NCBI RefSeq assembly: GCF_002074055.1
Contig: NZ_CP014619.1
Coordinates: 3,133,002-3,197,001 of the forward strand
Source of the DNA: Frondihabitans sp. 762G35
GTDB lineage: Bacteria > Actinomycetota > Actinomycetes > Actinomycetales > Microbacteriaceae
Reading direction: 5' to 3'
DNA length: 64,000 nt
The position numbers and the translations under genes were made by a program. Shown one piece after another: positions 22,747 to 62,266 of this stretch. Numbering within the stretch: position 1 is the first letter of the stretch; every line of letters begins with the position of its first letter. Below the pieces are notes generated by a model. That model made no database searches and was not told the DNA's origin. It saw only the letters and a program-made list of their open reading frames with translations.

Positions 22747-22790
22747 GGCGCTGAGCGGCGGGCGGGACGCCCGCCCGCGCCGGCCGCGCC

Positions 22791-22885: not shown

Positions 22886-22899
22886 CCGACACAGCGCCG

Positions 22900-36933: not shown

Positions 36934-36990
36934 CGAGACTCCACAACACGCCGCTCACTTTCACGAAAAAGCGCCAATCGTGGAGTCTCG
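36934..36990. repeat. Family B hairpin repeat, copy 1
   Basis: Perfect 11-bp inverted repeat CGAGACTCCAC (36934-36944) / GTGGAGTCTCG (36980-36990); the centre AACACGCCGCTCACTTTC... is shared with the copies near 62 kb. Three copies occupy the 310-bp gap 36887-37196 between the response regulator and the convergent E2 gene; nothing else is seen there. Confidence 0.85.
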
Positions 36991-37016
36991 GCCGACTGGC
37001 CAACGCCGGGCTCCAG

Positions 37017-37074
37017 CGAGACTCCACGACACGCCGCGGCCCGGAGAACATGAGCAGCGCGTCGTGGAGTTACG
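37017..37074. repeat. Family B hairpin repeat, copy 2 (variant centre)
   Basis: Arms CGAGACTCCACGAC (37017-37030) and GTCGTGGAGTTACG (37061-37074), two mismatches. The centre is ACACGCCGCGGCCCGG..., a second subtype also seen in copy 3. Confidence 0.8.
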
Positions 37075-37099
37075 GCCGGTGGGAGAACGGGCCGCTCCC

Positions 37100-37159
37100 G
37101 CGAGACTCCACGACACGCCGCGGCCCGGAGAACACGAGCAGCGCGTCGTGGAGTCTCGC
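37100..37159. repeat. Family B hairpin repeat, copy 3
   Basis: Perfect 15-bp arms GCGAGACTCCACGAC (37100-37114) and GTCGTGGAGTCTCGC (37145-37159) around the ACACGCCGCGGCCCGG... subtype centre. It ends 38 bp before the stop of the E2 gene. Confidence 0.85.
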
Positions 37160-37196
37160 GCGCACCGTGCGACCGGCGGCAGCGGCCCGAACCGGC

Positions 37197-38531
37197 TCAG
37201 TCGAGCAGCAGCGCCGGCTCCTCGAGAACGCTCGCGACGTCGGCCACGAAGCGGGACGCGACGTCGCCGTCGACGACGCGGTGGTCGAACGACGCGCCGA
37301 TCGTGGTCACCATGCGGGGGCGCACCTCCCCGTCGACGACCCACGCCTTCGGCTTGATCGTTCCGAGGGCGACGATTCCGACCTCGCCGGGGTTGAGGAT
37401 CGGGGTGCCGGTGTCCATCCCGAAGACGCCGATGTTGGTGATGGTGATGGTGCCGTCGGCCATGTCGGCGGGCTGCGTCTTGCCGTCGCGGGCGGTGAGC
37501 GTGAGGTCTTCCAGGGACTGGGCGAGCTGCAGGAGCGACATCGACTGGGCCTCCTTCACGTTCGGCACGATGAGGCCTCGGGGCGTCGCCGCGGCGATGC
37601 CGAGGTTGACGAAGTGGCGGACGAGGATCTCGTCGTCGGTCCACTCGGAGTTGACGGTGGGGTTCCGCTGCACGGCCCAGATGACGGCCTTCGCCATGAT
37701 CAGGAGCGGCGACACCTTGACCCCGGCGAACTGCGCGGAGTTCTTGAGCCGCTTGACGAACTCCATCGTGCGGGTCGCATCGACGTCGACGAAGAGGCTG
37801 ACGTGCGGGGCGGTGAAGGCGCTCCGGACCATGCCGGTGGCGATCGCCTTGCGGACGCCCTTGACGGGGATGCGCTCGATGCGCTCGTCGCCCCACTCGG
37901 GCGTCTCGATGTTGTGGAAGACGCTCGCCTGGCGGGCGGCGCGGATGACGTCGTCGCGGGTCGTCTCACCCGCGAGGCCGGTCGGCTCGACGGTGGCGAG
38001 GTCGACTCCGAGGTCTTTCGCGAGCTTGCGGATGGGCGGCTTGACCACGATCGGCTGGGCGGAGGCGGCGGGCACACTGGAGGGGCGCTGGCGCTTCTCG
38101 GCGGCGACCCGCTGGACCCGGGCGTCGGCCTCGCCCTTGCTCGGGCGGCGGCGGCGCGTGACCACGTGGCCACCGGTCGTCCCGTAGCCGACCAGGACGG
38201 CTCCGGCGCCGTCGTCGACGGGCGGCTCCTCGAACTCCTCCGACTCGAGGATCTCGTCTGCCGGGGTGCGGGGGATCTCACCGCCGGACACGCGGATGAT
38301 CGGCGCTCCCACGTCGACCGTCTGGCCGGACTGCACGAGCAGCTCGTCGACGGTGCCGGCGAACGGCGAGGGGAGTTCGACGAGCGACTTGGCCGTCTCG
38401 ATCTCGACGAGGACCTGGTTGACCTCGATGGTGTCGCCGGGCGCGACCTTCCACTCCACGATCTCGGCCTCGGTGAGGCCTTCGCCGACGTCGGGGAGGT
38501 GGAACTCGTTGCTGGTGCTGGTGGGCGACAA
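37197..38531 (-). CDS. 2-oxoacid dehydrogenase E2 (dihydrolipoamide acyltransferase)
   Basis: A 444-residue E2 with one lipoyl domain ([12 protein letters not shown]; lipoyl-lysine K48), an E1/E3-binding domain ([21 protein letters not shown], near residue 165) and a catalytic domain ending in [19 protein letters not shown] (HRxxDG motif). TTG 38531 with TACTAGGAGACCCC is the start. It follows E1 beta by 8 bp. Part of a pyruvate or, more likely in this anteiso-fatty-acid lineage, a branched-chain 2-oxoacid complex (inference). No E3 gene is adjacent. Confidence 0.9.
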
Positions 38532-38539
38532 GGGGTCTC

Positions 38540-39565
38540 CTAGTAGGCGAGGGCGCGGTCGACGGCCTCGAGCACGCGGTCGGCGTCGGGCAGGTAGACG
38601 GCCTCGAGCTTGGCGGGCGGGAAGGGGGCGTCGAAGCCGCTGACGCGCAGCACGGGCGCTTCGAGGGAGTAGAACGCCTTCTCGGCGACTGTCGCGGCGA
38701 TCTCGGAGCCGACGCTGACGTTGCCGGGTGCCTCCTGCGCGACGACGAGGCGGCCGGTCTTGCGGACGGACGCGAGGATGGGATCGAAGTCGAGGGGCGA
38801 CAGCGAGCGGAGGTCGACGACCTCGATGCTGATGCCCTCCTCGGCGGCGATCTCGGCGGCCTGCAGGAGCACGCTCACCATCGCGCCGTGCCCCACGACG
38901 GTGACCTCGGTGCCGACGCGCACCACGCGGCTGGCGTGCAGGGGCACGCCGGGGCGGGCGAAGTCGACCGGGCCCTTGGGCCAGTAGCGGCTCTTGGGCT
39001 CGAAGAACATGACGGGATCGTCGGAGGCGATGGCCTCCTGGATCATCCAGTAGGCGTCGTGCGGGGTCGACGGGCTCACGCTGCGGAGCCCGGCGGTGTG
39101 CGCGAAGTACGCCTCGGGGCTCTCCTGGTGGTGCTCGACCGCGCCGATGTGCCCGCCGTAGGGCACCCGGATGACCACGGGCATCCGGAGCGAACCCTCG
39201 TGCCGGTTGGTGAGCTTCGCGAGCTGCGAGGTGATCTGGTCGAAGCCGGGGAAGATGAAGCCGTCGAACTGGATCTCGATCACCGGGCGGTAGCCGCGCA
39301 TGGCGAGGCCGATCGCGGTGCCGACGATGCCGGACTCGGCGAGCGGCGTGTCGAGGACGCGCTTGGCGCCGAACTCCTGCTGCAGGCCCTCGGTGACGCG
39401 GAAGACGCCTCCGAGCGTGCCGATGTCCTCGCCCATGAGCATCACGCGGGGGTCGTCGGCCATGGCCTTGCGGAGGCCGGCGTTGATGGCGCGGCCGAGG
39501 GGCATCGTCTCGACGCCCGTGGTGGCGGGAGCCGCGGCGGGCGCGGTCGTGATCGTGTCGGTCAT
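38540..39565 (-). CDS. 2-oxoacid dehydrogenase E1 beta subunit
   Basis: A 341-residue E1 beta: [62 protein letters not shown] and [14 protein letters not shown], all standard. ATG 39565 overlaps the E1 alpha stop by 4 bp. Works with E1 alpha to decarboxylate a 2-oxoacid using thiamine diphosphate. Confidence 0.95.
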
Positions 39566-40764
39566 TCGCTGTCTCCGAAGGACGACTCGTAGTTGGCGAG
39601 CCACTCCTTCTGCTCGGTGATCCGGGGGTGCTCCTCGGAATAGACGTGATCGAACATGAGGTCGCTGGAGGGACGCTCCAGCGCCAGGGTGCGGCGGCGG
39701 ACGTCGGCCGCGAGGTCGCGGGCCTCGGCCTCGACCTCCGCGAAGAACGCGTCGCCCGCGCCGCGGCTCCGGAGGTAGGCCTCGAAGCGCGTGATCGGGT
39801 CGCGCGCGATCCACGACTGCGTCTCGGCGTCGGTGCGGTACTTCGTCGGGTCGTCGGAGGTGGTGTGAGCTCCGATGCGGTAGGTGAGGGCCTCGATGAA
39901 ACGGGGCCCTCCTCCTGCGCGCGCCGCGTCGAGGTCGCGCCGGGTCACGGCGTACGCGGCGAGCACGTCGTTGCCGTCGATCTGCGTGGACGGGATGCCG
40001 AAGCCCTCGCCGCGCTTGTAGAGCGGCGTGCGGGACTGCGTCGCGACGGGGACCGAGATGGCCCACTGGTTGTTCTGGAGGAAGAACACCTCGGGGGTCT
40101 GGTAGCTGGCCGCGAAGACGAGCGCCTCGCTGACGTCGCCCTGGCTCGTCGCACCGTCGCCGAAGTAGGCGACGACGGCCTGGTCGCGCTCGGGGTCGCC
40201 CGAGGCGTGGTCGCCGTCGAGGGCGATGCCCATGGCGTAGCCGGTGGCGTGGAGCGTCTGCGAGCCGATCACGAGCGTGTAGAGGTGGAAGTTGCCGCGC
40301 TCCGAGGGCTCCCAGCCGCCGTGGGTGGTGCCGCGCAGGAGCCGCACGACGTCGACCGGGTCGATGCCGCGGACGAGACCGACGGCGTGTTCGCGGTACG
40401 ACGGGAAGAGGTGGTCCTGCGGGCGGGCGGCGTGGGCCGACCCGACCTGGGCGCCCTCCTGGCCGTGGCTCGGCACCCAGAGGGCGAGCTGGCCCTGACG
40501 CTGGAGGTTGCCGGCCTCGTCGTCGAAGCGCCGCGTGCGGACCATGTCGCGGTGGAACTGCCGGAGGGTGTCGTCGTCGAGGACCTCGACGACGGGGAGG
40601 AACTCGGCCGTCCGGTCGTTCTCGACGAGCGCTCCGGCGGCGTCGAGGAGCTGGACCGTCGCCTCGGTGGCCGCTCCCCAGGTGGGAGCCTGACCGGCGG
40701 GAGGAGCCTGACCCGCTGGCGGGGCCTGGACGGGGGCGGAGAGCCCCGGTGCGCTTTCAGACAT
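39562..40764 (-). CDS. 2-oxoacid dehydrogenase E1 alpha subunit
   Basis: A 400-residue E1 alpha with the ThDP/Mg motif [14 protein letters not shown] ... NNQW, the substrate-loop [14 protein letters not shown] and [15 protein letters not shown]. An N-terminal linker [13 protein letters not shown] is an Ala/Pro/Gln-rich near-repeat (residues 15-27). First gene of the E1a-E1b-E2 operon, 20 bp after hisC-like gene on the same strand. BCKDH versus PDH is unresolved. Confidence 0.95.
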
Positions 40765-40784
40765 GGGGTCGAGCCTATTACCCC

Positions 40785-41864
40785 TCAGGAGCCGGATTCC
40801 TGGAGGCTTCGGACAACCTCCTGCGCGGCTCCTAGGAGTTTGTCGACAGAAGCGGACTCGCCGATGCTGATCCGGATGCCCTCCGGAGCGAAGGCGCGCA
40901 CGACGATGCCGGCCCGCTCGAAGACCGTCACGGCGCGGGCCGTGTCCTCGCCCGTGGGCAGCCAGATGAAGTTGCCCTGGGCGCGCGGCGGGTTCCAGCC
41001 CTGGTCGACGAGCGCCTGCCAGATCTGGTCGCGGAGCACGGCGATGCGGTGGACGCGCTCCAGCAGCTCGCCCTCGTGCTCGAGGGACGCCAGGGCGGCC
41101 TGCTGCCCCATCGCCGTGACGGAGAGCGGGATCGCGGTGGAGCGGGCGGCATCGAGCACGTAGGCGGGCCCGACGGCGTAGCCGACCCGGAGCCCCGCGA
41201 GGCCGTAGGCCTTCGAGAAGGTCCGCAGGACGACGAGGTTGGGGTGCCTCTCGGTCAGCGACAGCCCGTCGACGGCCGACTCGTCGGTCACGAACTCGGC
41301 GTACGCCTCGTCGAGCACCACGAGCACGGTCTCGGGCACGCGGGCGAGGAACGCCTCGACCTCGGCCGTCGTGACGATCTCGCCGGTCGGGTTGTTCGGC
41401 GAGCAGACCAGGACGATGCGGGTCCGGTCGGTGACCGCATCGGCCATGGCATCGAGGTCGTGCCGGCCGTCGGGCAGGAGCGGAACCTGCACGCTGGTCG
41501 CGCCGGTCACCGTCACGAGACCGGGGTAGGCCTCGAACGAGCGCCAGGCGTAGACGACCTCGTCGCCGACCTGGGCGGCGGCCAGCAGGAGCTGGGACAG
41601 GAGCGACACGGATCCGGCCCCCACGTGCACCTCGTCGACGTCGACCCCGATCCGCGCGGCGAGCGCCTCGCGGAGGGCCGTGGCTCCGGCGTCGGGGTAG
41701 CGGTTAAGGTCGACGGCACCGCGCAGTGCCTCGACGACCGCCGGGAGCGGATCGAAGGGGTTCTCGTTCGACGACAGCTTGAACGCGTCGGCGGCCGCCT
41801 GCCGACCCTGCCGATAGGGCGGGAGGGCGGCGATTTCGGGGCGGAGACGCACGGGAGAGGTCAC
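40785..41864 (-). CDS. HisC-like aminotransferase (histidinol-phosphate/aromatic)
   Basis: A 359-residue fold-type I aminotransferase: [12 protein letters not shown] (HisC signature), the PLP-lysine region [26 protein letters not shown] and VLDEAYAEF. Length matches HisC (about 350-370). Could be histidinol-phosphate or phenylalanine-type transaminase (Pat); no other his genes are nearby, and its neighbour is the 2-oxoacid dehydrogenase, so a role in amino-acid degradation to 2-oxoacids is possible (inference). GTG 41864. Confidence 0.85.
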
Positions 41865-41917
41865 CCGACAAGAGTACGGGCTACCACCCGGGCCGCCGAG
41901 TCGGCATAGTGGTCGCC

Positions 41918-42322
41918 ATGCGCTTCTTCGTCCGGCTCGTCATCAACGCTCTCGCGCTCTGGCTCACGACCTACCTCGTCTCCGGCGTGCACGTGACGGC
42001 GTTCGGGGATCGCACCGTCGTGCCGACGGTCCTCACGTACCTCCTCGTCGCGTTCATCTTCGGTCTCGTGAACGGCATCGTCGGGACCGTCATCAGGATC
42101 GTGGCGTTCCCGCTCTACATCCTGACCCTCGGCCTCATCTCGTTCATCGTCAACGGCCTGCTGCTCGTGGTCGTGGCGGGGGTGTCGGGCATCATCGGCT
42201 TCGGCCTCACCGTCGACAACTTCGGCTGGGGCATCCTGGGGGCCCTCGTCCTCGCGATCCTCGCCTGGCTGATCGGCATCGTCCTGCGGCCCTTCTTCGG
42301 CACCGTCGCCACGCGCCGCTGA
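41918..42322 (+). CDS. Phage holin family (Phage_holin_4_2) membrane protein
   Basis: A 134-residue protein with four hydrophobic helices: [51 protein letters not shown] (the conserved NxxxxxxxK/R.. P segment), [18 protein letters not shown] and a C-terminal [13 protein letters not shown]. These chromosomal holin-like genes are widespread and are not evidence of a prophage. ATG 41918 is preferred to a GTG three codons earlier. Confidence 0.85.
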
Positions 42323-42375
42323 CCACCCCGGCGGCGGAGCCGCCCTCCCGACCCGATGCTGCTGGAAGACGGACC

Positions 42376-42933
42376 ATGGACCTCGACGACGACTCCTCGG
42401 TCTCCGGCGAACCACCGCTCTTCCGGATCGTCTTCGTCTGCACGGGCAACATCTGCCGCTCCCCCATGGCGGCGATCGTCTTCGGCTCGCTCGTCGAGCG
42501 CGCAGGCTACGGCGAGCGCGTCGCCGTCTCGTCGGCCGGCACGGGCGACTGGCACGTCGGCGAGCACGCCGACTCCCGCACGATCGAGGCCCTCGCGAAC
42601 CGCGGCTACGATGGGTCGCGGCACCGGGCGAGGCAGTTCGAAGCCGCGGACTTCGCCCGCCACGACCTCGTGGTGGTCTTCGATCGCGGCCAGGAGCGCA
42701 TTCTGAAGTCGTGGGCGCCCAGCGAGTCCGAGCGCATCAAGGTCCAGCTCCTGCGGAGCTTCGACAGGGGGCGCGAGGTCGACGCGGGTCCGCACGTCGG
42801 CGGAACGGACGTCCCCGATCCCTACTACTCGGATGCCGCCATGTTCGAGACCGTCCTCGACCTGGTCGAACGGGCCTCCACGGCGCTGTTCCGGCAGATC
42901 GAACCAGCACTACGACAGGGATCCCTCCAATGA
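42376..42933 (+). CDS. Low-molecular-weight protein tyrosine phosphatase
   Basis: A 185-residue phosphatase with the catalytic CX5R loop VCTGNICRSPMA (C22, R28) and the acid DPYY (around residue 148). Hydrolyses phosphotyrosine; usually linked to polysaccharide or signalling control. ATG 42376; overlap of 4 bp with purB. Soluble, no signal peptide. Confidence 0.9.
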   Translation: MDLDDDSSVSGEPPLFRIVFVCTGNICRSPMAAIVFGSLVERAGYGERVAVSSAGTGDWHVGEHADSRTIEALANRGYDGSRHRARQFEAADFARHDLVVVFDRGQERILKSWAPSESERIKVQLLRSFDRGREVDAGPHVGGTDVPDPYYSDAAMFETVLDLVERASTALFRQIEPALRQGSLQ

Positions 42934-44315
42934 GCCTTCCGCAGCAGCCCCTGAGCCCCCTCGACGGTCGGTATCTCCCCGCCGTCGCCGACCTCGGCGA
43001 GCACCTCAGCGAGGCGGGGCTCAACCGCGCCCGCGTGCACGTCGAGGTCGAATGGCTGATCGAGCAGACCGACCGCTCGTTCGCCGGATCCCGCCCGCTC
43101 GAAGACGACCAGAAGGCGGCCCTCCGCTGGGTCGTCGCCGACTTCGGCCAGAGCGACATCGACGAACTGGCCGCCCTCGAGGCGACCACCCGCCACGACG
43201 TCAAGGCCGTCGAGTACTACGTCCGTGCGCGCCTGGCCGACCTGGGCCTCGACGCGATCGCCGAGCTCACCCACTTCGCCTGCACGTCGGAGGACATCAA
43301 CAACCTCAGCTACGCGCTCGTGGTGAAGTCGGCCGTCTTCGACGTGTGGCTCCCCCGCTTCGACAGCGTGATCGCCCTCTTCGCCGACCTCGCCCGCGAG
43401 CACGCCGAGACCCCGATGCTGTCGCACACCCACGGCCAGCCCGCCACCCCGACGACCGTCGGCAAGGAGTTCGCGGTCACCGCGCACCGCCTGGGCCGCG
43501 TGCGCGAGCAGATCGTCGGCACCGAGTTCCTCGGCAAGTTCTCCGGTGCCACCGGCACGTTCTCGGCGCACGTCGTCGCGGCCGGGGACCTCGACTGGCC
43601 GGCGATCTCGAGGGCCTTCGTCGAGGGTCTCGGTCTCTCCTGGAACCCGCTGACCACGCAGATCGAATCGCACGACTGGCAGGCCGAGCTGTACTCGCGG
43701 GTCGCCCACGCCAACCGCATCCTGCACAATGTCGCCACCGACATCTGGACCTACATCTCGATGGGCTACATCACGCAGATCCCGCAGGCGGGAGCGACCG
43801 GCTCGTCGACGATGCCGCACAAGATCAACCCGATCCGGTTCGAGAACGCCGAGGCGAACCTCGAGATCTCGTCGGCGCTGTTCTCCTCGCTCGCCGAGAC
43901 CCTGGTGACGAGCAGGATGCAGCGCGACCTGACCGACTCGTCGTCCCAGCGCAACATCGGCGTCGCCTTCGGCCACTCGCTCCTGGCGCTCGACAACATT
44001 CGCCGCGGACTCGGCGAGATCGCCATCAACACGGAGGCGCTCGCCCGCGACCTCGACGGCAACTGGGAGGTCCTCGGCGAGGCCATCCAGACCGTCATCC
44101 GCGCCGAGATCACGGCCGGCCGCTCGTCGATCTCCGACCCGTACGCGATGCTCAAGGAGCTCACGCGCGGCCGCCGGGTCGGGCAGGAGGAGCTGGTCGC
44201 GTTCGTCGACGGGCTCGACATCGGCGACGAGGCCAAGGCCCGCCTCCGCACCCTGACCCCCGGTGACTACACGGGAGTCGCGGCGTCGCTGGTCGGGTAC
44301 CTGCCAGGCGCCTAG
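42930..44315 (+). CDS. purB: Adenylosuccinate lyase
   Basis: A 461-residue PurB, acting twice in purine synthesis (SAICAR and adenylosuccinate cleavage). Seen: LSPLDGRYLPAVADLGEHLSEAG start, HFACTSEDINNLSYAL (the conserved TSxDxxxT-like region), SHTHGQPATPTTVGKE and the signature GSSTMPHKINPIRFENAE. ATG 42930 overlaps the phosphatase stop by 4 bp. Length matches the E. coli-like PurB (456 residues). Confidence 0.95.
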   Translation: MSLPQQPLSPLDGRYLPAVADLGEHLSEAGLNRARVHVEVEWLIEQTDRSFAGSRPLEDDQKAALRWVVADFGQSDIDELAALEATTRHDVKAVEYYVRARLADLGLDAIAELTHFACTSEDINNLSYALVVKSAVFDVWLPRFDSVIALFADLAREHAETPMLSHTHGQPATPTTVGKEFAVTAHRLGRVREQIVGTEFLGKFSGATGTFSAHVVAAGDLDWPAISRAFVEGLGLSWNPLTTQIESHDWQAELYSRVAHANRILHNVATDIWTYISMGYITQIPQAGATGSSTMPHKINPIRFENAEANLEISSALFSSLAETLVTSRMQRDLTDSSSQRNIGVAFGHSLLALDNIRRGLGEIAINTEALARDLDGNWEVLGEAIQTVIRAEITAGRSSISDPYAMLKELTRGRRVGQEELVAFVDGLDIGDEAKARLRTLTPGDYTGVAASLVGYLPGA

Positions 44316-44354
44316 CGGGCGCAGTGGCCGTGCGGGCGCAGGGGCCGTTCGGGC

Positions 44355-44636
44355 TCAGTGGCCGCGCGGCCCCTCGTCGTCGTCCTCGAGGATGCCCTTG
44401 ACCCGGCCGTTCTCGTCGCGGATCTCGTGACGCTCCTCGGCGTTCGGCTTCGCGGCGAGCGTCAGCATGGCCAGGACGACCACGCTCACGATGAAGGCGA
44501 TCAGCAGGAAGATCAGGGCCATACGGATCTCGCGCGTCGCGAGCATCACGATGAGGCCGGTGAACACGCTGAAGACGGCGGCGAGCCCGAGGAGCTCGGC
44601 CGGACGGATGCGCTCGTGTCTGCTGGGTGTCGTCAT
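44355..44636 (-). CDS. Small membrane protein, hypothetical
   Basis: A 93-residue protein with two hydrophobic helices (LLGLAAVFSVFTGLIVMLA, residues 13-31, and ALIFLLIAFIVSVVVLAML, residues 40-58) and an acidic hydrophilic tail (EERHEIRDENGRVKGILEDDDEGPRGH). Unknown function. ATG 44636 overlaps the DUF308 gene stop by 4 bp, so the two are coupled. Confidence 0.8.
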   Translation of the reverse strand: MTTPSRHERIRPAELLGLAAVFSVFTGLIVMLATREIRMALIFLLIAFIVSVVVLAMLTLAAKPNAEERHEIRDENGRVKGILEDDDEGPRGH

Positions 44637-45292: not shown

Positions 45293-45399
45293 AGGACTTC
45301 TTTCGGGCAGGGGAGGGGGACGATCGAGTTTACCTCCGGGCATCCTGGATTCTCGCCCGCCCCGTCTCGACGTGAAGCATCGGTGACGGCAGCGACGCG

Positions 45400-53361: not shown

Positions 53362-53433
53362 TCCGGGTCCGACCCCTGTCCGCACGGTGCCCTGTCCGCA
53401 CCGTGCCCGGCCGGCGTCGTTAGGCTCGGCGAC

Positions 53434-53823: not shown

Positions 53824-53888
53824 CGCCCGTCGCGCCGGGGCGCCGCTGCTCGATCTCCGCGCGAAACGACCAATCGCTAAACCGGTTG

Positions 53889-53902
53889 CGTGAGCGCTCA
53901 CG
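53889..53902. promoter_or_regulatory. Palindrome CGTGAGCGCTCACG (LacI-type)
   Basis: A perfect 14-bp palindrome, 21-34 bp upstream of the aldo/keto reductase start; a second symmetric element AAACCGGTT occurs at 53878-53886. Both have the central CG typical of LacI-family operators. The regulator is not in the window. Confidence 0.5.
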
Positions 53903-53922
53903 AAGAGGACTAGCGTCGAGGC

Positions 53923-54954
53923 ATGGACTACAGAAACCTCGGAAACTCGGGTGCCGTCGTGTCGGAGCTGACACTGGGCACCATGACCTTCGGCGCAGAA
54001 GCCGACGAAGCCACCTCCCACACCCTCATCGACACCTTCGTCGAGCACGGCGGCACGTTCCTCGACACGGCCGACGTCTACTCGGCCGGAGTCTCGGAGA
54101 CGATCATCGGCCGCTGGCTGAAGGCGCACCCGACCGAAGCGCAGCAGATCGTCCTCGCGACGAAGGGGCGCTTCCCGATGGGCGACGGCCCGAACGACGT
54201 CGGCCTCTCGCGCCGGCACCTCCGCTCGGCCCTCGACGCGTCGCTGACGCGCCTCGGTGTCGACCACATCGACCTCTACCAGATGCACGCGTGGGACGCC
54301 CTCACGCCGATCGACGAGACCCTGCGCTTCCTCGACGACGCCGCGGCCGCCGGCAAGATCGGCTACTACGGCTTCTCGAACTACCTCGGCTGGCAGCTCA
54401 CGAAGGCCGTGCACCGCGCGATCGCGCTCGGCCTCGTCCCGCCGGTCACGCTCCAGCCGCAGTACAGCCTCCTCGTGCGCGACATCGAGCACGAGGTCGT
54501 CCCCGCCTCGCTCGACGCGAACATCGGCCTGCTCCCCTGGTCGCCCCTCGGCGGCGGCTGGCTCACCGGCAAGTACGAGCGCGACGTGGCCCCGACCGGT
54601 GCCTCGCGCCTCGGCGAGAACCCGGAGCGCGGCATGGAGGCATGGGCGGCCCGCAACGCCGACGAGCGCACCTGGCGCATCCTCGACGCCGTGACCGCCG
54701 TGGCCGGAGAGACCGGCGCCACGAAGTCGCAGGTGGCGATCGCGTGGCTCCTGGCCCAGCCCGCCGTCACGAGCGTCATCCTGGGCGCGCGCACGGTCGA
54801 GCAGCTCGTCGACAACATCGGCGCCTCCGGCGTCGACCTCTCCGTCGAGCAGGTGTCGCGCCTCAGCGACGCGAGCGCTCCGACCATCGACGACTACCCC
54901 TACGGCACCGCAGGAGTCGCCCAGCGTCAGCGCAAGATCACCGGCGGCCGCTGA
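53923..54954 (+). CDS. Aldo/keto reductase
   Basis: A 343-residue NADPH-dependent aldo/keto reductase. Seen: LGNSGAVVSELTLGTMTFG, the catalytic D (DTADVYSAG), Y58-type tyrosine in the same segment, GRFPMGDGPNDVGLSR, and SRNVLDH-like DHIDLYQMHAWD; TPL segment LPWSPLGGGWLTGKY. Reduces a carbonyl in the cytosol; the exact substrate is open. Preceded by two LacI-type palindromes; followed by a strong hairpin terminator. Confidence 0.9.
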   Translation: MDYRNLGNSGAVVSELTLGTMTFGAEADEATSHTLIDTFVEHGGTFLDTADVYSAGVSETIIGRWLKAHPTEAQQIVLATKGRFPMGDGPNDVGLSRRHLRSALDASLTRLGVDHIDLYQMHAWDALTPIDETLRFLDDAAAAGKIGYYGFSNYLGWQLTKAVHRAIALGLVPPVTLQPQYSLLVRDIEHEVVPASLDANIGLLPWSPLGGGWLTGKYERDVAPTGASRLGENPERGMEAWAARNADERTWRILDAVTAVAGETGATKSQVAIAWLLAQPAVTSVILGARTVEQLVDNIGASGVDLSVEQVSRLSDASAPTIDDYPYGTAGVAQRQRKITGGR

Positions 54955-54977
54955 GAAGCGCCTCCTCCGACCGACGG

Positions 54978-55004
54978 ACGCCCGGGCCCCCACGGCCCGG
55001 GCGT
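54978..55004 (+). terminator. Rho-independent-type hairpin after the aldo/keto reductase
   Basis: An 11-bp stem ACGCCCGGGCC (54978-54988) with GGCCCGGGCGT (54994-55004), loop of 5, followed by TCTCC. Very GC-rich; 24 bp after the stop codon at 54954. Confidence 0.75.
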
Positions 55005-55057
55005 TCTCCGTCCCCCGGCTGATGCGGGCGCCCAGGCGCGCGTGAATACAATGACGA

Positions 55058-56299
55058 GTGCTGGACAGAGACCCGTCGTCGACCCGCGTCGCGACCCGCG
55101 AACCGGTCCCGTCGCCGTCCCGCCTCCTGACGCTCGCCTCGAGGGTCCCCACCTGGGCGGCCGTCCTCGGCATCTACGCCGCCTCGCGCGTCTTCTCCAC
55201 CGTCCTGCTCTTCATCGTCTACCGGATCGCCGCCTCGCATCCCGGCCAGTACGCCGACGGCTACGTCGACGGGGGCCGCGGCACCGGGTTCTTCGGCTTC
55301 TCGAACGTCTGGGACGGCGCCTACTACACGTCGATCGCGCAGCACGGCTACCCGCACGTCCTGCCCATCAGCGCCTCGGGCGCGGTCGAGCCCAACTCGT
55401 GGGCGTTCCTGCCCTTCTTCCCCTGGACCGTGCGCATCCTGGCCCAGATCACGGGCTGGGACACCGGCGCCGTCGCGGCGGGGGTCGCCACGATCTTCGG
55501 CGCTCTCGCGGCGCTCATGCTCCACCGGTTCCTCCGCCTGCGGGTCGACGCCCTCGGCGCCCTCTGGGGCACCACGTTCTTCTGCTTCGGCGCGATGGCC
55601 TTCGTCCTGCAGGTCGGCTACGCCGAGAGCATGTTCCTCTTCTTCTGCTTCACCGGGATGTGGGCCCTGCTGACCCGGCGGTACGTGCTCCTGGCGTGGT
55701 CGGGCGTCATCGCGTCGTTCACGAAGCCGGGGGCCCTCGCCCTCGCCCTCGCGCTCGCAATCGTCGTCGTCCACCGCCTCTGGACGAAAGACCCCTTCCC
55801 CCGCGCCGAGCGGATCGCGGCCGTCGTCGCCGGGCTCGCGATCGCCGCGGCCGGGTTCACCTGGCCGCTCATCGCCGCGGCCGCCACCGGCGTGCCCGAC
55901 GCCTACCTGAAGACCGAGACGGCGTGGTGGATCTCCTACATCGGCACCGACCACTTCGTGCCGCTGACGCCCTGGTTCCTCTTCGCGATCCGCTACCTCG
56001 GGATCCTCGGAGCCGTCGTCGTCCTGGCCATCGTCGCGCTGTGGTTCTGGGGGATGCGCAAGCCGTCGCTCCGGCGACTCGGCGTCGACATCCGCGCGTT
56101 CCTGACGGCGTACGCGCTCTACCTCTTCGCCGTCTTCCTGCCGCAGCAGAGCCTGCCCCGCCTGTTGATGCCCCTCGCACCCCTCGTCGCCGTCGACAGC
56201 ATCACGCATCGCAAGCACCTCCGGCACCTGGTGCTCGGGTCGGGGATGGCGCTCCAGTTCGTCGCCATCGTCACCCTCTGGCTCACCGGCCCTCCGTAG
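55058..56299 (+). CDS. PIG-V-like mannosyltransferase (polyprenyl-phosphate-dependent GT-C)
   Basis: A 413-residue multi-helix protein resembling PIG-V/actinobacterial mannosyltransferases: FFGFSNVWDGAYYTSIAQHGYPH (the WDxxxY...IA..GY motif of this group), FFPWTVRILA, and a VLQVGYAESMFLFF segment. About ten helices. Probably adds mannose or another sugar to lipid or protein at the outer face of the membrane. GTG 55058. Followed after 137 bp by the GH6 lipoprotein. Confidence 0.8.
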   Translation: MLDRDPSSTRVATREPVPSPSRLLTLASRVPTWAAVLGIYAASRVFSTVLLFIVYRIAASHPGQYADGYVDGGRGTGFFGFSNVWDGAYYTSIAQHGYPHVLPISASGAVEPNSWAFLPFFPWTVRILAQITGWDTGAVAAGVATIFGALAALMLHRFLRLRVDALGALWGTTFFCFGAMAFVLQVGYAESMFLFFCFTGMWALLTRRYVLLAWSGVIASFTKPGALALALALAIVVVHRLWTKDPFPRAERIAAVVAGLAIAAAGFTWPLIAAAATGVPDAYLKTETAWWISYIGTDHFVPLTPWFLFAIRYLGILGAVVVLAIVALWFWGMRKPSLRRLGVDIRAFLTAYALYLFAVFLPQQSLPRLLMPLAPLVAVDSITHRKHLRHLVLGSGMALQFVAIVTLWLTGPP

Positions 56300-56436
56300 C
56301 GGCGGCACCGCCGGAAGCCTCGCCGACGAGCACTCTCGAACGTCGGCGCCGTTGTGTTGGGGCGGCCGCGCGTGATGGACTGGCACTGCGTGCACTGGCG
56401 GACGCCCCACCGTCCCTCCTGCCGATCGGGGTCCGC

Positions 56437-57444
56437 ATGACGCACAGACGACGCCGCAGCGTGCTGCTCGCCGTGGCCATCGTCGCCGCGGTCGGGCTCC
56501 TCGCCGCCTGCACCTCCGAGACTCCGACCCCGAGGCCGTCGAGCGGGTCGACGCTGCGCGACGAGTCGAACCGCGTGCTCTTCGAGGGCGGCCTCTACGT
56601 CCAGCGGGACAGCCTCGCCGCCCGGGCCGCCACCCGCCTCGAGCGCGCGGGCGACGCGACGGCCGCCGGCGCCGCGAGCGCCATCGCGAAGGAGTCCGTC
56701 GCGATCTGGCTGGGTGATCAGTACGACGTCGCGCAGGTGCGACGCGTCGTCCGCGAGAACGTGGCCGCCGCCGAGAAGAAGGGCGTCACCCCCGTCTTCG
56801 TGACGTACGCCATCCCGCACCGCGACTGCGGCGACTACTCGGCCGGCGGCTGGACCGCCGAGCGCTACCCGGCGTGGACGAAGGCGATCGCCGACACCCT
56901 GAAGGGCCACCGCGCCGTCGTCCTCGTCGAGCCCGACTCCCTGGCCATGCTGAGCAACTGTCCAGCCGAGACGGACGTCCGCGTCCCGCTCATCAAGCGG
57001 GCCGTCGAGCAGTTCGCCGCGGCCGGCGTCCCCGCCTACCTCGACGCCGGGAACTCCCACTGGGTACCGCCCGCGACGATGGCGGCGCGCCTCGAGGACG
57101 CCGGGATCGCCTCCGCCCGCGGGTTCTTCACGAACGTCGCCAGCTTCTACCGGGTCGACCAGGAGCGCGCCTACGCCGAGAAGGTCTCGGCCCTCACCGA
57201 CTCCTCGCACTTCGTCATCGACGTCTCGCGGAACGGCCAGGGCTGGAAGGGCACCTGGTGCAACCCCTCCGGCACGGGTCTCGGACAGGATCCCCACGTG
57301 ACCGGTGGCACGGGCGGCCTCGACGCGCTGCTGTGGATCAAGTCGCCCGGCATCAGCGACGGCTCCTGCAACGGCGGGCCCAAGGCCGGGGCCTGGTTCT
57401 CCTCCTACGCGCAGGACCTCGTGCGGCTCCGCGCCCGCGACTGA
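56437..57444 (+). CDS. Glycoside hydrolase family 6 (cellulase-type) lipoprotein
   Basis: A 335-residue GH6 enzyme. A lipobox LLAACTS at residues 20-26 predicts a lipoprotein. The GH6 set is visible: AIPHRDCGDYSAGG (with catalytic-acid Asp region), VVLVEPDSLAMLSNC, PAYLDAGNSHWVP, GFFTNVASFYRVDQE, FVIDVSRNGQGWKG and WCNPSGTGLGQDP. Endo- or exo-beta-1,4-glucanase expected; no CBM is attached. ATG 56437. Four cysteines in the mature part could form two disulfides. Confidence 0.9.
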   Translation: MTHRRRRSVLLAVAIVAAVGLLAACTSETPTPRPSSGSTLRDESNRVLFEGGLYVQRDSLAARAATRLERAGDATAAGAASAIAKESVAIWLGDQYDVAQVRRVVRENVAAAEKKGVTPVFVTYAIPHRDCGDYSAGGWTAERYPAWTKAIADTLKGHRAVVLVEPDSLAMLSNCPAETDVRVPLIKRAVEQFAAAGVPAYLDAGNSHWVPPATMAARLEDAGIASARGFFTNVASFYRVDQERAYAEKVSALTDSSHFVIDVSRNGQGWKGTWCNPSGTGLGQDPHVTGGTGGLDALLWIKSPGISDGSCNGGPKAGAWFSSYAQDLVRLRARD

Positions 57445-57468
57445 CCGGGCTCGGGGCCGGAGCCGTCG

Positions 57469-58956
57469 TCAGGACAGGGGCTCGCGCTCCCGCTCCTGCG
57501 CGACAACGGCCTCCCGGTCGGCGAGGCGACGCAGCCCCGCGAGCGGCTGGGCCATCCGGTGGTTCCGCCGGAGGGCCCCCTCGGTGCGGTCGAGGAAGGC
57601 CCAGTAGCCGGCGGTGTAGGGGCAGGCGTCCGGGCCCAGGCGCTTCTTCGGCGAGAAGACGCACCCCGCGCAGTGGTCGGTCATGCGGTCGATGTAGGCC
57701 CCGCCGGAGGCGTACGGCTTCGTGGCGACGAGACCGCCGTCGGCGTGCTGCGACATGCCCACGACGTTCGCCGGCATCACCCAGGGCGTCCCGTCGACGA
57801 ACATGTCGACGAACCAGGCGTTGAGCGCCACCGGGTCGTAGCCCCGCTGGAGCGCCCAGTTGCCGATCACCATGAGCCGCTGGATGTGATGGGCCCAGCC
57901 GTGCTCGCGGACGCCGTCGATCGCGTGGTGCAGGCAGTTCGCCTCGATGGCGTCGGGCGTGAGCGTGAGGAACGACTCGGGGAGCGGCTCCGTCGCGGCG
58001 AGCGCGTTGTGGCTGACGGTGTAGTCCTCGCCGAGGTGCCAGTAGAGGTGCCACACGTAGTCGCGCCAGCCGGCCACCTGGCGCACGAAGCCCTCGACGC
58101 TCGCGAGCGGTGCGCCCCGACCGTGCTCCGCAGCTACGCGCTCGACGACGCGTAGCGGATCGAGCAGGCCGAGGTTCAGCGGGGCGCTCAGGAGCGAGTG
58201 CGCCATCGTCCAGTCGCCGGTGAGCGTGGCGTCCTCGAACGGGCCGAAGTCGGCCAGGCGACTCTCGACGAAGTCGTCGAGGGCGCGCTCCGCCTCGCTC
58301 TCGGTCGCCGCGAAGCGCCGGGGCCCGTCGGCGCCGACGAGCTGCACCGCGCCCTCGGCCTGCCAGCGGTCGAGATCGTGCCGGACCTCGTCGTCGATGT
58401 CGTCCTCCTCGGGCCACCACGGCTCCGGCAGCCCGAGCGTCACGGCCCCCTTCGGCGGCGACGCCCGGTTGTCGTGGTCGTAGTTCCACCGGCCGCCGAC
58501 GGGCTGGTCGCCCTCCATCAGCAGGCCCGTCCGCTCGCGGGTGGCTCGGTAGAAATCTTCGAGCAGGAGCCGCGACCCCCCGCGCGCGTCCGCCCACTCG
58601 CGGAACTGCTCCTCGCTCGTCACGAAGCCCCGACTCGGCAGGATCCGGCAGCCCACCTCGCGCACGAACCGCCGCGCGGCGTAGGACGGCGGGTCGATCA
58701 CCTCGAGGTCGTCCCGCCCCGTCGATCCCCCCGTCGCCTCGAGCGCCTGCCGGTAGTCGTCGACCCGGTGGTACTCCACGCGGTCGCCGAGCTCGCGGAC
58801 GCGGTGCCGGAGAGCGGACAGCAGGAGGTGCGCCTTGGCGCGGTGGATCGGGCGACCCGCCACCAGCGAGCGGGCCTCGACCACGAGGATCCTGCCGCCG
58901 TCGTCGAAGAGGGACCCGAGCTGACCCGAGAAGAGCCATCTGGTGCGAGCTTCCAT
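57469..58956 (-). CDS. FeS bacterial cryptochrome/photolyase (PhrB-like)
   Basis: A 495-residue cryptochrome/photolyase of the FeS-BCP (prokaryotic 6-4 photolyase) group. The four cluster cysteines C341, C429, C432 and C445 have exactly the spacing of Agrobacterium PhrB (88, 3, 13). FAD/active-site pieces: WAHHIQRLMVIGNWAL and MYANVVG-like MPANVVGMSQ. ATG 58956; the longer frame runs into the intergenic leader. Repairs (6-4) photoproducts by light, using FAD and a lumazine-type antenna (family knowledge). Confidence 0.95.
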   Translation of the reverse strand: MEARTRWLFSGQLGSLFDDGGRILVVEARSLVAGRPIHRAKAHLLLSALRHRVRELGDRVEYHRVDDYRQALEATGGSTGRDDLEVIDPPSYAARRFVREVGCRILPSRGFVTSEEQFREWADARGGSRLLLEDFYRATRERTGLLMEGDQPVGGRWNYDHDNRASPPKGAVTLGLPEPWWPEEDDIDDEVRHDLDRWQAEGAVQLVGADGPRRFAATESEAERALDDFVESRLADFGPFEDATLTGDWTMAHSLLSAPLNLGLLDPLRVVERVAAEHGRGAPLASVEGFVRQVAGWRDYVWHLYWHLGEDYTVSHNALAATEPLPESFLTLTPDAIEANCLHHAIDGVREHGWAHHIQRLMVIGNWALQRGYDPVALNAWFVDMFVDGTPWVMPANVVGMSQHADGGLVATKPYASGGAYIDRMTDHCAGCVFSPKKRLGPDACPYTAGYWAFLDRTEGALRRNHRMAQPLAGLRRLADREAVVAQEREREPLS

Positions 58957-59025
58957 GGGGTGCACGGTACCCGTGGCGGCGGTCCCCCGGCACGCGCGGG
59001 TCGGCGCGGTCGTTAGGCTTGCTCG

Positions 59026-59355
59026 GTGATCGTCGCCGCCATCGTCCTCTTCGTCGTCGCCGCAGCGATCGCGGGCACCGCGGGTGCCGCCGCCGCGGGA
59101 ATCCTGGGGCCGAACCACGTCGCGGGGATCCGGATCCCGGCACTCCTCGCGTCGCCCGAGGCCTGGCGGATCGGCCACCGCCGCGCCCTCTTGCCCCTCG
59201 CCGTGGCCGCCGTGATCGCGGTCGCCGCAGGAATCGTCTGCCTCGTGCGGCCCGACTCGGTGGGGGTGCTCGTCGTGGCGATCCTGCTGATCGTGGCGCT
59301 GATCGCGTTCGCGGTCGTCCGTGCCGGGCGCGCGGCCCTCGACGTCGAGGGCTGA
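59026..59355 (+). CDS. SdpI family membrane protein
   Basis: A 109-residue protein with three hydrophobic helices; GPNHVAGIRIPALLASPEAWRIGHRRA matches the SdpI motif GxRxP.tl.s...W...h. In Bacillus SdpI gives immunity to the Sdp toxin, but family members like this are often general. GTG 59026; 70 bp after the divergent photolyase start at 58956. Function here unproven. Confidence 0.8.
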   Translation: MIVAAIVLFVVAAAIAGTAGAAAAGILGPNHVAGIRIPALLASPEAWRIGHRRALLPLAVAAVIAVAAGIVCLVRPDSVGVLVVAILLIVALIAFAVVRAGRAALDVEG

Positions 59356-59434
59356 GACCGCCGCGCCCCGAGCGCGCCGTCCCGATCACTCAGGGCTGTT
59401 TGCCGAGGGTGACTACTTGTGCAAGAGTACTCCG

Positions 59435-59998
59435 GTGTCTTCCATCCGCCTCTTCCTCCTCGACGCCTTCGAGCGACGCGGCGAGATGCACGGGCACCAG
59501 ATCCGACTGCTCGCCGACGAGGAGCACGTCCACCTCTGGACGGACATCTCCGTCGGCAGCCTCTACGGCGCCATCAAGCGCCTCGCCGCGGAGGGCCTCG
59601 TCGAGGTCGTGCGCTCGGAGCGAGCCGGCAACTTCCCGGAGCGCCACGTCTACGCGATCACCGAGGCGGGACGCCGGGCGCTCCACATCCTGCGTGACGA
59701 CGGCCTCGCCGCCATCACCCTGCGGCCCGACCCCTTCGACCTGGCGCTGACCCGCCTCGACGTCGAACGCCTCGACGAACTCCGGCCTACAGTCGAGGCC
59801 AGACTCGCCCGGCTGCACGGGATGCTCGCCGAGACGATCGACCTGAACCAGAAAGCCCTGCCCTTCCTCTCGGTGGCCGAGACGCACGCCATGCGCCACC
59901 GGGAACACCGCCTCCGCTCCGAGATCTCCTGGCACGAGCAGCTGCTCGCGGATCTCCCCGCGGTGACGGACGACGAGCTCGTCCGCGCCGCCTCCTGA
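59435..59998 (+). CDS. PadR family transcriptional regulator
   Basis: A 187-residue repressor: winged helix LFLLDAFERRGEMHGHQIRLLADEEHVHLW and SLYGAIKRLAAEGLVEVVRSERAGNFPERHVYAIT, then a C-terminal dimerisation helix domain (Vir_act_alpha_C). The longer TTG reading (59417) is possible; GTG 59435 fits the conserved start. A CTTG-TG-CAAG dyad at 59416-59425 lies just upstream. Probable regulator of the DHA2 pump 59 bp downstream. Confidence 0.85.
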   Translation: MSSIRLFLLDAFERRGEMHGHQIRLLADEEHVHLWTDISVGSLYGAIKRLAAEGLVEVVRSERAGNFPERHVYAITEAGRRALHILRDDGLAAITLRPDPFDLALTRLDVERLDELRPTVEARLARLHGMLAETIDLNQKALPFLSVAETHAMRHREHRLRSEISWHEQLLADLPAVTDDELVRAAS

Positions 59999-60056
59999 CC
60001 CCACCCCCTTCCGTCATCACCCCCGCCGCGCCCGCGGTACGAAAGGCCTTGCTCCC

Positions 60057-61829
60057 ATGACAGACGCGACCGCCACGGCCCAGCGCCAGGCACAGCCCAT
60101 CCCGAAGGTCGCCTGGCGATCGCTCATCGTGCTCCTGCTGGGCATGTTCATCGCCCTGCTCGACACCACCATCGTCAACGTGGCGCTGCCCACGATCCGG
60201 ACGTCGCTGAACGCCTCCGAGGCCACCGTCTCCTGGATCATCTCCGGCTACGCGCTCGCGTTCGGCCTCGCCCTCATCCCCGCCGGGCGCATCGGCGACC
60301 GCATCGGGCACAAGTGGGTCTTCTTCACCGGCATCGCGCTGTTCACGGCCGCGTCGTTCGCCTGCGGAATCGCGCAGACCGACACGCAGCTCGTCATCTT
60401 CCGCGTCGTGCAGGGGCTCGCGGGCGGCATCTACGTGCCCGCCGTCACCGCCTTCATCCAGCTGCTGTTCCCGCCGCAGGCGCGCGGCAAGGCGTTCGCC
60501 ATCATGGGCAGCGTCATCGGCGTCTCCTCCGCCCTCGGCCCCATCGTCGGCGGACTCCTGATCCAGGCCTTCGGCGACACGGACGGCTGGCGCACCGTGT
60601 TCTACGTGAACCTTCCGATCGGTCTCGTCGCCCTCGTCGCGGCCGCCATCCTGCTGCCGAAGCGCGACCCGGCGGCGCAGCGTCCGCCGGCGGGCCTCGA
60701 CTGGATCGGCGTCGTCCTCGTCTCCGGCGCCCTGGTGGCCCTTCTCGTCCCGCTCATCCAGGGGCAGGACGAGGGCTGGCCGCTCTGGACGTACCTCACC
60801 ATCGCCGGCGGCGTCGTCCTGCTCGCCGTCTTCGGCGCCTGGGAGGTCTTCTACAGCCGCCGAGGACGCAGCCCGCTCGTTCCGCCGTCGCTGTTCAAGC
60901 ACCCGCAGTTCACCGGCGGCGTGATCCTCGCGCTCGTCTACTTCGCCGCCTTCACCAGCATCTTCTTCACGATCTCCCTCCTCTGGCAGACCGGCCTCGG
61001 CCACAGCGCCCTCGCCTCCGGCGCCGTGACGATCCCGTTCGCGGTCGGCAGCATCCTCGGCTCGTCGCAGAGCAACCGGCTCTCGTCCAGGCTCGGACGC
61101 ACCGTCCTCATCCTCGGCACGGCCCTCGTGGCCATCTCGCTGATCTCGCTGTGGCTGATCTTCCTGCTCGTCAAGGGCGCGGACCTCACCAGCTGGATGC
61201 TGCTCGTCCCCCTCCTCATCGGCGGGATCGGCAACGGGCTCTTCATCGCCCCGAACGCGCAGTTCATCGTCGCCACCGTCGACCGGAAGGACGCGGGCTC
61301 CGGCTCGGCCGTCATCGCCGCCATCCAGCGCATCGGCAGCGCGATCGGCATCGCCGTGATCGGCTCGGTCCTGTTCGGCGCGCTCGTCATCCCCAAGGCC
61401 GGGAAGCCGACCAGCAACACGCCGCAGGCGATCGCCGACGTCAAGCAGGCGTTCGCCGCCGAGTTCGCGACGAACTTCACCACGGCTGCGGCCCACGCGA
61501 TGCTCGTCAGCGCGATCTTCGCGGTGGTGGCGTTCGCTCTCGTGTTCGCGCTGCCGAAGCGCGTCGGGGCTCCCGGGCGCGGGGCCGGGTCCGGGTCGTC
61601 GCCGAACGCTCGGGGTGGAAGCGCGCCGGTCAGCCCGGACGTCACCGGTGCCGGTGGCGGTGCTGGGTCCGAGGCCGCGGCTCCTGCCGGCGGGTCGCAT
61701 GGTGCGCACGCCGCGGATCCTGCGCACCCGGCGGAGCCGGTCCACGCCGGACACGGCTCCCACGCCGCGGAGCCGTCGACGTCGCACGGCGCCCACGCTG
61801 CCGACGTGGAGCCCGACGCGCGCCCGTAG
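60057..61829 (+). CDS. DHA2-type MFS drug transporter with His-rich C-terminal tail
   Basis: A 590-residue 14-helix exporter (EmrB/QacA subfamily). Seen: ALLDTTIVNVALPTI (DHA2 motif D1), GRIGDRIGHKWVFF (motif A), and VLQGLAGGIYVPAV (motif C). Residues from about 545 on are a soluble tail with eight histidines in roughly 45 residues (SHGAHAADPAHPAEPVHAGHGSHAAEPSTSHGAHA), absent from typical DHA2 proteins. Operon with PadR is probable. Expected to export toxic compounds by proton antiport; the tail may bind metal (inference). Confidence 0.85.
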   Translation: MTDATATAQRQAQPIPKVAWRSLIVLLLGMFIALLDTTIVNVALPTIRTSLNASEATVSWIISGYALAFGLALIPAGRIGDRIGHKWVFFTGIALFTAASFACGIAQTDTQLVIFRVVQGLAGGIYVPAVTAFIQLLFPPQARGKAFAIMGSVIGVSSALGPIVGGLLIQAFGDTDGWRTVFYVNLPIGLVALVAAAILLPKRDPAAQRPPAGLDWIGVVLVSGALVALLVPLIQGQDEGWPLWTYLTIAGGVVLLAVFGAWEVFYSRRGRSPLVPPSLFKHPQFTGGVILALVYFAAFTSIFFTISLLWQTGLGHSALASGAVTIPFAVGSILGSSQSNRLSSRLGRTVLILGTALVAISLISLWLIFLLVKGADLTSWMLLVPLLIGGIGNGLFIAPNAQFIVATVDRKDAGSGSAVIAAIQRIGSAIGIAVIGSVLFGALVIPKAGKPTSNTPQAIADVKQAFAAEFATNFTTAAAHAMLVSAIFAVVAFALVFALPKRVGAPGRGAGSGSSPNARGGSAPVSPDVTGAGGGAGSEAAAPAGGSHGAHAADPAHPAEPVHAGHGSHAAEPSTSHGAHAADVEPDARP

Positions 61830-61854
61830 CCCGCGCCGCCCGTCCCGCCCCGCT

Positions 61855-61917
61855 CCGCGAGACTCCACAACACGCCGCTCACCTTCGTGAGAACGCGCCA
61901 ATCGTGGAGTCTCGCGG
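61855..61917. repeat. Family B hairpin repeat, copy 4
   Basis: Perfect 14-bp arms CCGCGAGACTCCAC (61855-61868) and GTGGAGTCTCGCGG (61904-61917), centre AACACGCCGCTCACCTTCGTGA... The 437-bp gap 61830-62266, between the convergent MFS and NlpC/P60 genes, holds four copies and nothing else recognisable. Confidence 0.85.
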
Positions 61918-62008
61918 CATCGGCGCGACCCCCGGGCGACGGCGGGCGCCCGCAGGAGCCGCGGAACCCTCCCGGGCGAGAGTCTCCGGCGGGCCAGATT
62001 CCGCCCCC

Positions 62009-62067
62009 GCGAGACTCCACAACACGCCGCTCACCTTCGCGAAAACGCGCCAATCGTGGAGTTTCAC
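62009..62067. repeat. Family B hairpin repeat, copy 5
   Basis: Arms GCGAGACTCCAC (62009-62020) and GTGGAGTTTCAC (62056-62067), two mismatches; centre as in copy 4. Confidence 0.8.
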
Positions 62068-62091
62068 GCGCCGGGTCGCGACATCGCGCCC

Positions 62092-62150
62092 GCGAGACTC
62101 CACGACACGCCGCTCACCTTCGCGAGAACGCGCCAATCGTGGAGTCTCGC
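62092..62150. repeat. Family B hairpin repeat, copy 6
   Basis: Perfect 12-bp arms GCGAGACTCCAC (62092-62103) and GTGGAGTCTCGC (62139-62150), centre GACACGCCGCTCACCTTCGC... Confidence 0.85.
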
Positions 62151-62174
62151 CCGCGCGGTCGCGACATCGCGCCC

Positions 62175-62231
62175 GCAACACTCCACAACACGCCGCTCAC
62201 CTTCGCGGAAAGACGCCACCCGTGGAGCCGG
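62175..62231. repeat. Family B hairpin repeat, copy 7 (degenerate)
   Basis: Left arm GCAACACTCCAC (62175-62186) and a weak right arm GTGGAGCCGG (62222-62231); the centre AACACGCCGCTCACCTTCGC is well kept. It is the decayed end of the array. Confidence 0.65.
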
Positions 62232-62266
62232 ACGCGTCAGCCGCGCGGCCCGCAGCGGAAGCGCCG

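Follow-up and report, generated by a model that had tools for sequence, protein, structure and literature searches.

Miniature inverted-repeat transposable elements (MITEs) are short, non-coding and bounded by inverted terminal repeats. Another class of dispersed repeats, the repetitive extragenic palindromes (REPs), is defined by a palindrome of 20–40 nt that bears a GTAG or CGTC tag at one end. REPs are found chiefly in gaps whose flanking genes are convergent or co-directional, and effects on supercoiling, termination and mRNA stability have been hypothesised for them (PMC3733652). Hairpin doublets of REPs, termed REPINs, are linked to the REP-associated tyrosine transposases (RAYTs), and tandem REP arrays of fixed distance are found alongside them (PMC3116915). 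The REP transposase TnpA_REP depends on the GTAG tag; in the related IS200/IS605 systems, transposition is strand-specific and takes place on single strands (PMC8266576). In E. coli, gyrase cuts at BIME-2, a bacterial interspersed mosaic element (BIME), and the signals rise upon transcription inhibition (PMC6379681). Here, we describe a palindrome, named family B, in a window of 64,000 nucleotides of Frondihabitans sp. 762G35 (positions 3,133,002–3,197,001 of its 3,409,251 bp single-contig genome, G000) and across that genome. Family B works like a REP or BIME but carries neither the tag nor a detectable Y1 transposase in its genus, and its neighbouring copies mostly stand whole numbers of helical turns apart. 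The genomes of six sister species (G001 to G006) were used for comparison, giving a genus set of seven genomes with G000.

The 3.41 Mb genome holds at least 166 family B elements of 57–58 bp, in 71 clusters. The exact arm word matched the whole genome 85 times in forward and 119 times in reverse orientation, as against 1 and 0 for the reversed word, and all 204 matches fall inside the loci that were read. A two-arm scan of 524,649 bases revealed 171 elements (57 bp in 144 and 58 bp in 21) versus 3 in a reversed-sequence control. To reach 166, six scan elements scoring 17/22 were dropped, one of which (at 608192) is probably real, and a decayed window copy was added by hand. It should be noted that 166 is a minimum: a covariance-model search scored at least 150 candidates, and degenerate copies outside the loci read would escape. 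Within the window, 12 arm matches with at most one mismatch were found where 3.73 were expected, and 12 was reached in none of 100 shuffles. The earlier note on this DNA, which had suspected a unit that moves or duplicates, held that a lack of further copies, or an even spread inside genes, would speak against terminator or mobile roles; copies were observed genome-wide and are not evenly spread in genes. No Rfam family matched the window at the gathering threshold, and plasmid and phage sequences gave no family B match. In viral contigs, a single 57 bp match (L176, 5888–5944) was judged to be chance; it lies within predicted open reading frames and its interior is not palindromic by eye.

Each element has conserved ends of 10 bp, CGAGACTCCA...TGGAGTCTCG, around a palindromic interior. 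One half, the A half (CGAGACTCCAC-RAC[AT]CGCC[GA]CTCAC.TTCG, called when at least 9 of 12 inner positions agree), is present at least once in each of 165 scored elements. In 145 of these (AB elements; 57 bp in 143), the other half, B, is variable inside and keeps the terminal arm; in the remaining 20 (AA elements; 58 bp in 19), both halves are A. These types are the two centre subtypes that had been recognised from the window copies, and the centre start reported for them, ACACGCCGC, is correct. Family B thus shares with MITEs its short length, its lack of coding sequence and its inverted terminal repeats, the 10 bp ends being conserved in G000, G003 and G005, but here the whole unit is one palindrome. 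As in REPINs, two inverted halves make one hairpin, and some copies in a cluster are tandem repeats whereas others have unrelated neighbours (PMC3116915).

The copies of a cluster are mostly spaced in helical register. Among the 95 spacers of G000, 42 measure 25–28 bp, 36 measure 34–39 bp and 12 measure 44–47 bp, so that 90 fall in three bands. The mean centre-to-centre distances of 82.90, 93.11 and 103.42 bp (standard deviation 0.7–1.0 bp) equal 8, 9 and 10 turns at 10.35 bp per turn. When each array contributed a single spacer, the phase concentration was R = 0.82 near 10.3 bp; this used the 46 of 48 arrays whose first spacer does not exceed 70 bp, longer spacers being left out. None of 20,000 smoothed resamples attained this value (largest 0.48); the null took the maximum over 9 periods, while the observed value came from a finer period grid. 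The spacers had earlier been called irregular, which holds for their sequence and not for their length.

Such spacing could simply result from the tandem duplication of a small number of ancestral units, and equal-length spacers inside one array are indeed 84–96% alike, except in one of the six length classes (47 bp), where the figure is 50%. Equal-length spacers of different arrays, in contrast, are unrelated (39–46% alike, compared with 37–41% after shuffling). Duplication therefore extends arrays but does not explain their common lengths. Moreover, all 22 neighbour pairs with dissimilar or oppositely oriented interiors, from 14 arrays, fall in the bands, and so do three of the four spacers of G003 (37, 27 and 47 bp), where the interiors are different again. 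We consequently give very little credence to duplication as the whole source of the register. A helical register is not needed by RNA hairpins either, whereas it is expected of double-stranded DNA occupied by protein; the pattern, which the earlier note had missed, is left unexplained by a plain RNA terminator. In the portions of the literature that were available to the search, regular BIME spacing is known and no helical register is reported for REP-like repeats. The available text of a 2025 REP survey covering three Actinomycetota has no words beginning microbacteri, helical or spacing (PMC12306157), and the one publication found to pair Frondihabitans with repeat and palindrom concerns cave-church bacteria.

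Using our own gene caller, 38 of the 71 clusters were placed between convergent genes, 26 between co-directional and 6 between divergent genes, with 1 overlapping a gene call; a looser gene cut-off gave 35, 25, 5 and 6, respectively. Set against the remaining gaps of these loci, of which 53 of 413 are convergent, the convergent excess has an odds ratio of 8.1 (p 2e-13); the comparison gaps come from loci picked for holding elements and not from the genome at large. All six divergent clusters are single copies, convergent clusters average 2.8 copies, and the largest stacks contain up to seven. The median distance of co-directional clusters is 36.5 bp to the upstream stop, as against 92.5 bp to the downstream start, and 17 of the 26 are nearer the stop. 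In the relatives, the 26 clusters comprise 15 convergent, 7 co-directional, 2 divergent and 2 overlapping a predicted gene. Family B is thus high-copy, extragenic and biased to gene 3' ends, often in arrays between convergent or co-directional genes, as are REPs and BIMEs. It differs from them in its 57–58 bp unit, its conserved 10 bp ends and turned-over interior, and its spacers, which are unrelated in sequence and fixed in helical phase.

Elements with the same 10 bp ends and different interiors were found in G003 (22) and G005 (6); the elements of the relatives measure 57–58 bp, with one of 60. G001 gave two weaker matches, equal to its reversed control count, of which one resembles the A half and one overlaps a gene call; the better of these, with its A-like interior, is retained as a possible element. 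Two sister species (G003 and G005), and perhaps G001, share the ends and length of family B. In G002, G004 and G006, no family B was found in the stretches read or by a general pattern run on whole genomes. This pattern matched, with controls in brackets, 17 (1) times in G003, 7 (1) in G005, 2 (2) in G001 and never in the other three, and one of the seven G005 matches failed the end scan. Two G003 matches with an end score of 15 were excluded from the context, pair and length counts, which gives 30 elements in relatives. Of these 30, the 18 of 57 bp (17 from G003 and 1 from G001) were used for a covariation test of the 22-pair palindrome: 39 cells changed on both sides versus 12.9 in shuffles, 93% of cells are paired, and every slid control was far lower.

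Beyond the genus, a family-wide search, whose pattern used C-type arms only and missed G005, matched 10 of 398 genomes; the 8 outside the genus had one match each, and these were taken as chance, since a single genome can hold up to 5 matches to the reversed control. An order-wide search with more general ends and the length found only G000 among 297 genomes, G000 being the sole member of the genus drawn. In a contig collection, 19 stretches matched, of which 6 lie on two contigs of Frondihabitans sp. Leaf304 and 13 in scattered taxa.

AB elements are not equivalent on their two strands. The strand that reads B first turns internal mismatches into G-T pairs and pairs further. The pairing that the earlier note had read on the + strand holds for the arms, but that strand is the weaker one of AB copies. 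With RNA parameters, the B-first strand folds better by a mean of 5.9 kcal/mol, an advantage seen in 64 of 69 clusters, while DNA parameters give about 1.5 kcal/mol, in 115 of 145 elements. Over the outer 12 pairs, transitions amount to 74 G-T versus 21 C-A, counted once per cluster and position, and to 26 versus 13 without positions 1 and 12 (p 0.053). Because most of the asymmetry sits at positions fixed in an ancestral AB element, much of the strand preference is inherited from that one element, and the bias is accordingly weaker evidence for ongoing selection on single strands. The polarity of the A half does not flip at mid-genome, which offers little ground for a replication-strand bias. 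Judged by the first element of each cluster, the A half favours the + strand at 0–0.5 Mb and 3.0–3.41 Mb of G000 (16 to 7) and the - strand in the remainder (26 to 15), which is no simple replichore flip.

These data bear on the view that family B is a classical REP or REPIN moved on single-stranded hairpins by a RAYT-type Y1 (HUH) transposase. The copy number and 3'-end position are of the REP sort (PMC3733652), and the better folding of one AB strand would suit such an enzyme. The transposase domain PF01797, however, was detected in none of the seven genus genomes, G000 included (E <= 0.001), a search confined to this transposase family and in which 5 of 14 control genomes were positive. A standard RAYT is therefore unlikely in this genus, in contrast to the REPINs, which are linked to RAYT genes. 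Moreover, the ends CGAGACTCCA...TGGAGTCTCG have no GTAG or CGTC tag, the unit exceeds the REP length, and the strand bias is in part inherited, as the 26 : 13 ratio indicates. Overall, we find this origin improbable.

The history of the sites was followed by tracing three convergent gene pairs in the six sister species. None of the resulting 18 stretches contains a family B element, which, with the copy number and the subfamilies of equal ends and length, agrees with a mobile or duplicating unit. A synteny comparison over 380 kb of G002 and G003 gave just the two window loci. Other hairpins occupy some of these places. At the cluster-2 pair, other stems of at least 10 bp lie between or beside the matched flanks in all six relatives, and T-rich sequence follows some of them. 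At a third pair (1,890,264; three copies in G000), the best stems measure 18, 18, 15, 10, 11 and 19 bp and are mutually unrelated by eye; two of them, sought as dispersed families, were not found elsewhere among 205 loci, a small sample. At the cluster-1 pair, the short gap of G001 has a stem with 9 bp arms, and the genes are further apart in G003, G004 and G005.

A wider count was made in gaps of 40–400 bp, using stretches of G002 and G003 that were not picked for hairpins. A stem of at least 10 bp was present in 7/20 and 10/19 convergent gaps, respectively, compared with 1/26 and 2/26 divergent and 10/68 and 8/44 co-directional ones; the corresponding window counts are 3/4, 0/7 and 2/20. In this genus, therefore, convergent gene ends often carry hairpins, and in G000 many of these places are occupied by family B.

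Several other palindromes were noticed in such gaps. In the cluster-2 orthologue of G001, L114 397–460 is an inverted repeat of 64 bp whose 30 bp stem is perfect. The orthologous gap of G003 holds a 57 bp palindrome (L110 134–190, the same as L150 7033–7089) with the ends CGAAAGTGCA...TGCACTCTCG; given its equal length and ends that are 15/20 similar, it is possibly a member of a sister family. Another hairpin family, with arms around GGCAAYKCAGG, lies in convergent gaps of G000 (window positions 12416–12786 and 22747–22899), and similar hairpins of 64–87 bp, with arms containing TCAGGATG, are seen in G002 (L137 2186–2272, 4374–4437 and 15173–15246; L136 19874–19953). A third repeated inverted sequence, around CGGTGGTCCTAGG, occurs in G000 convergent gaps (L036 953–1121, L053 2389–2656 and L075 1395–1477).

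Given this placement, the elements could be first and foremost intrinsic terminators that work in both directions without a T-tract, were spread by duplication and are kept by selection at convergent gene ends, a view close to the stacked bidirectional terminators first proposed for the window. Their position fits: like intrinsic terminators, they put a G+C-rich stem right past the stop codon (six of the seven window copies fold), over half of the clusters are convergent (38/71), and co-directional clusters tend towards the stop (17/26). The commoner stems in convergent gaps of G002 and G003, and the unrelated stems at the corresponding position in every one of the six relatives (two loci of three), point the same way. 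Other findings speak against it: the elements lack a T-run or a terminator-like match, and the cluster-1 gap has no stem of at least 8 bp in two of three short-gap relatives. Furthermore, stacks of up to seven copies exceed the need of a terminator, and neither the helical register nor a dispersed sequence family is a feature of RNA terminator hairpins. The better-folding strand is not tied to transcription either (15 versus 11 co-directional clusters), and the sense strand of these clusters carries more C-A (35) than G-T (7). We therefore hold it rather unlikely that the elements are mainly terminators.

The reading that we favour, with some confidence, is that family B is a REP/BIME-like non-coding palindrome, amplified in this lineage, which would act as a hairpin insulator or terminator at gene 3' ends and whose arrays are kept in register by a putative DNA-binding protein. 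According to this scenario, a 57–58 bp unit would have been copied to about 70 places, presumably by a trans-acting enzyme. Copies would survive chiefly just past stop codons, most of all in the gaps of convergent gene pairs. There, a strong hairpin would be tolerated and probably helps by blocking transcription from either side or by insulating the genes. A second copy placed beside the first would usually come to lie a whole number of helical turns away. The whole-turn distances between neighbours suggest that a protein bound to the double-stranded element, either the copying enzyme or a host protein on the arrays, sets or selects the register.

Several observations weigh against this REP/BIME-like insulator scenario. 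As to movement, the bases flanking the elements show a C/G-rich bias only, with no target-site duplication in a comparison that included no close empty-site strain; a mobilising gene was not identified; and the flanks in relatives have 71–91% DNA identity, too diverged for clean junctions. As to termination, no T-tract is visible (T makes up 1–14% per position in the 25 bases downstream, and A 1–13% upstream), no terminator-like site was found in window clusters 1 and 2, the short cluster-1 gaps of G002 and G006 have no stem of at least 8 bp, and co-directional clusters carry few G-T pairs on their sense strand, as given above. As to the register, five of the 95 spacers are off the bands (51, 53, 65, 95 and 107 bp), one of four G003 spacers (13 bp) is an exception, 73 of 95 neighbour pairs are similar copies and hence possible tandem duplications, and the 22 dissimilar pairs share 14 arrays and are not all independent. 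Moreover, fixed spacing as such is already known: BIMEs are described as regularly spaced REPs (PMC2817692), and tandem arrays with fixed REP distances are described in Pseudomonas (PMC3116915). The 107 bp spacer contains another degenerate copy by eye.

A more specific form of this reading, which we put forward tentatively and with less than even confidence, is a protein lattice. A sequence-specific protein would sit on the 10 bp ends and neighbours would be locked on one helix face at 8, 9 or 10 turns; the resulting nucleoprotein block would separate converging transcription units or hold their supercoils, and the element would spread because the same protein, or an enzyme sharing its site, measures the phase when placing copies. 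A supercoil-related role would be a reasonable parallel to BIME-2, and no more.

Within the window, seven copies form two clusters with paired arms at the positions given in the earlier note, and both clusters do lie tail to tail between convergent genes, as it had stated. All copies are given on the + strand. In cluster 1, element 1 (36934..36990) is an AB element of 57 bp with its conserved A half first (fold z -3.94), and elements 2 (37017..37074; z -3.07) and 3 (37101..37158; z -5.71) are AA elements of 58 bp. They are separated by two in-phase spacers of 26 bp (36991..37016 and 37075..37100). Cluster 2 comprises three AB elements of 57 bp, namely element 4 (61858..61914; z -7.43), element 5 (62010..62066; z -3.24) and element 6 (62093..62149; z -6.44), followed by element 7 (62176..62232), a decayed copy of AB type by eye. 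The spacer between elements 4 and 5 (61915..62009) measures 95 bp and is one of the five off the three bands, whereas those between elements 5 and 6 (62067..62092) and 6 and 7 (62150..62175) measure 26 bp and are in phase. The arms of element 7 are under the scan threshold and it folds no better than shuffled sequence (z -0.20), while the six other copies fold better than shuffles (z -3.07 to -7.43).

From our own gene calls and Pfam matches, cluster 1 is flanked by a LuxR-family response regulator on the left (36236..36886, + strand; PF00072, PF00196) and a 2-oxoacid dehydrogenase acyltransferase, E2, on the right (37197..38531, - strand; PF00198). Cluster 2 lies between a major facilitator transporter (60057..61829, + strand; PF07690) and an NlpC/P60 protein (62267..63523, - strand; PF00877). 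As a separate observation, the octamers GCATCCTG and CAGGATGC are over-represented on the window + strand, with 17 and 16 occurrences as against 0 and 1 for the reversed words.

The spacing of dissimilar neighbours is a physical signature, integral turns combined with unrelated sequence, that points to a double-stranded, protein-bound state. If the lattice were true, it is helical register rather than sequence that would decide whether copies of this repeat family insert or survive, with no Y1 REP transposase involved. This matters for how REP-like repeats may spread where no REP transposase has been found, and for why they are gathered at converging gene ends.

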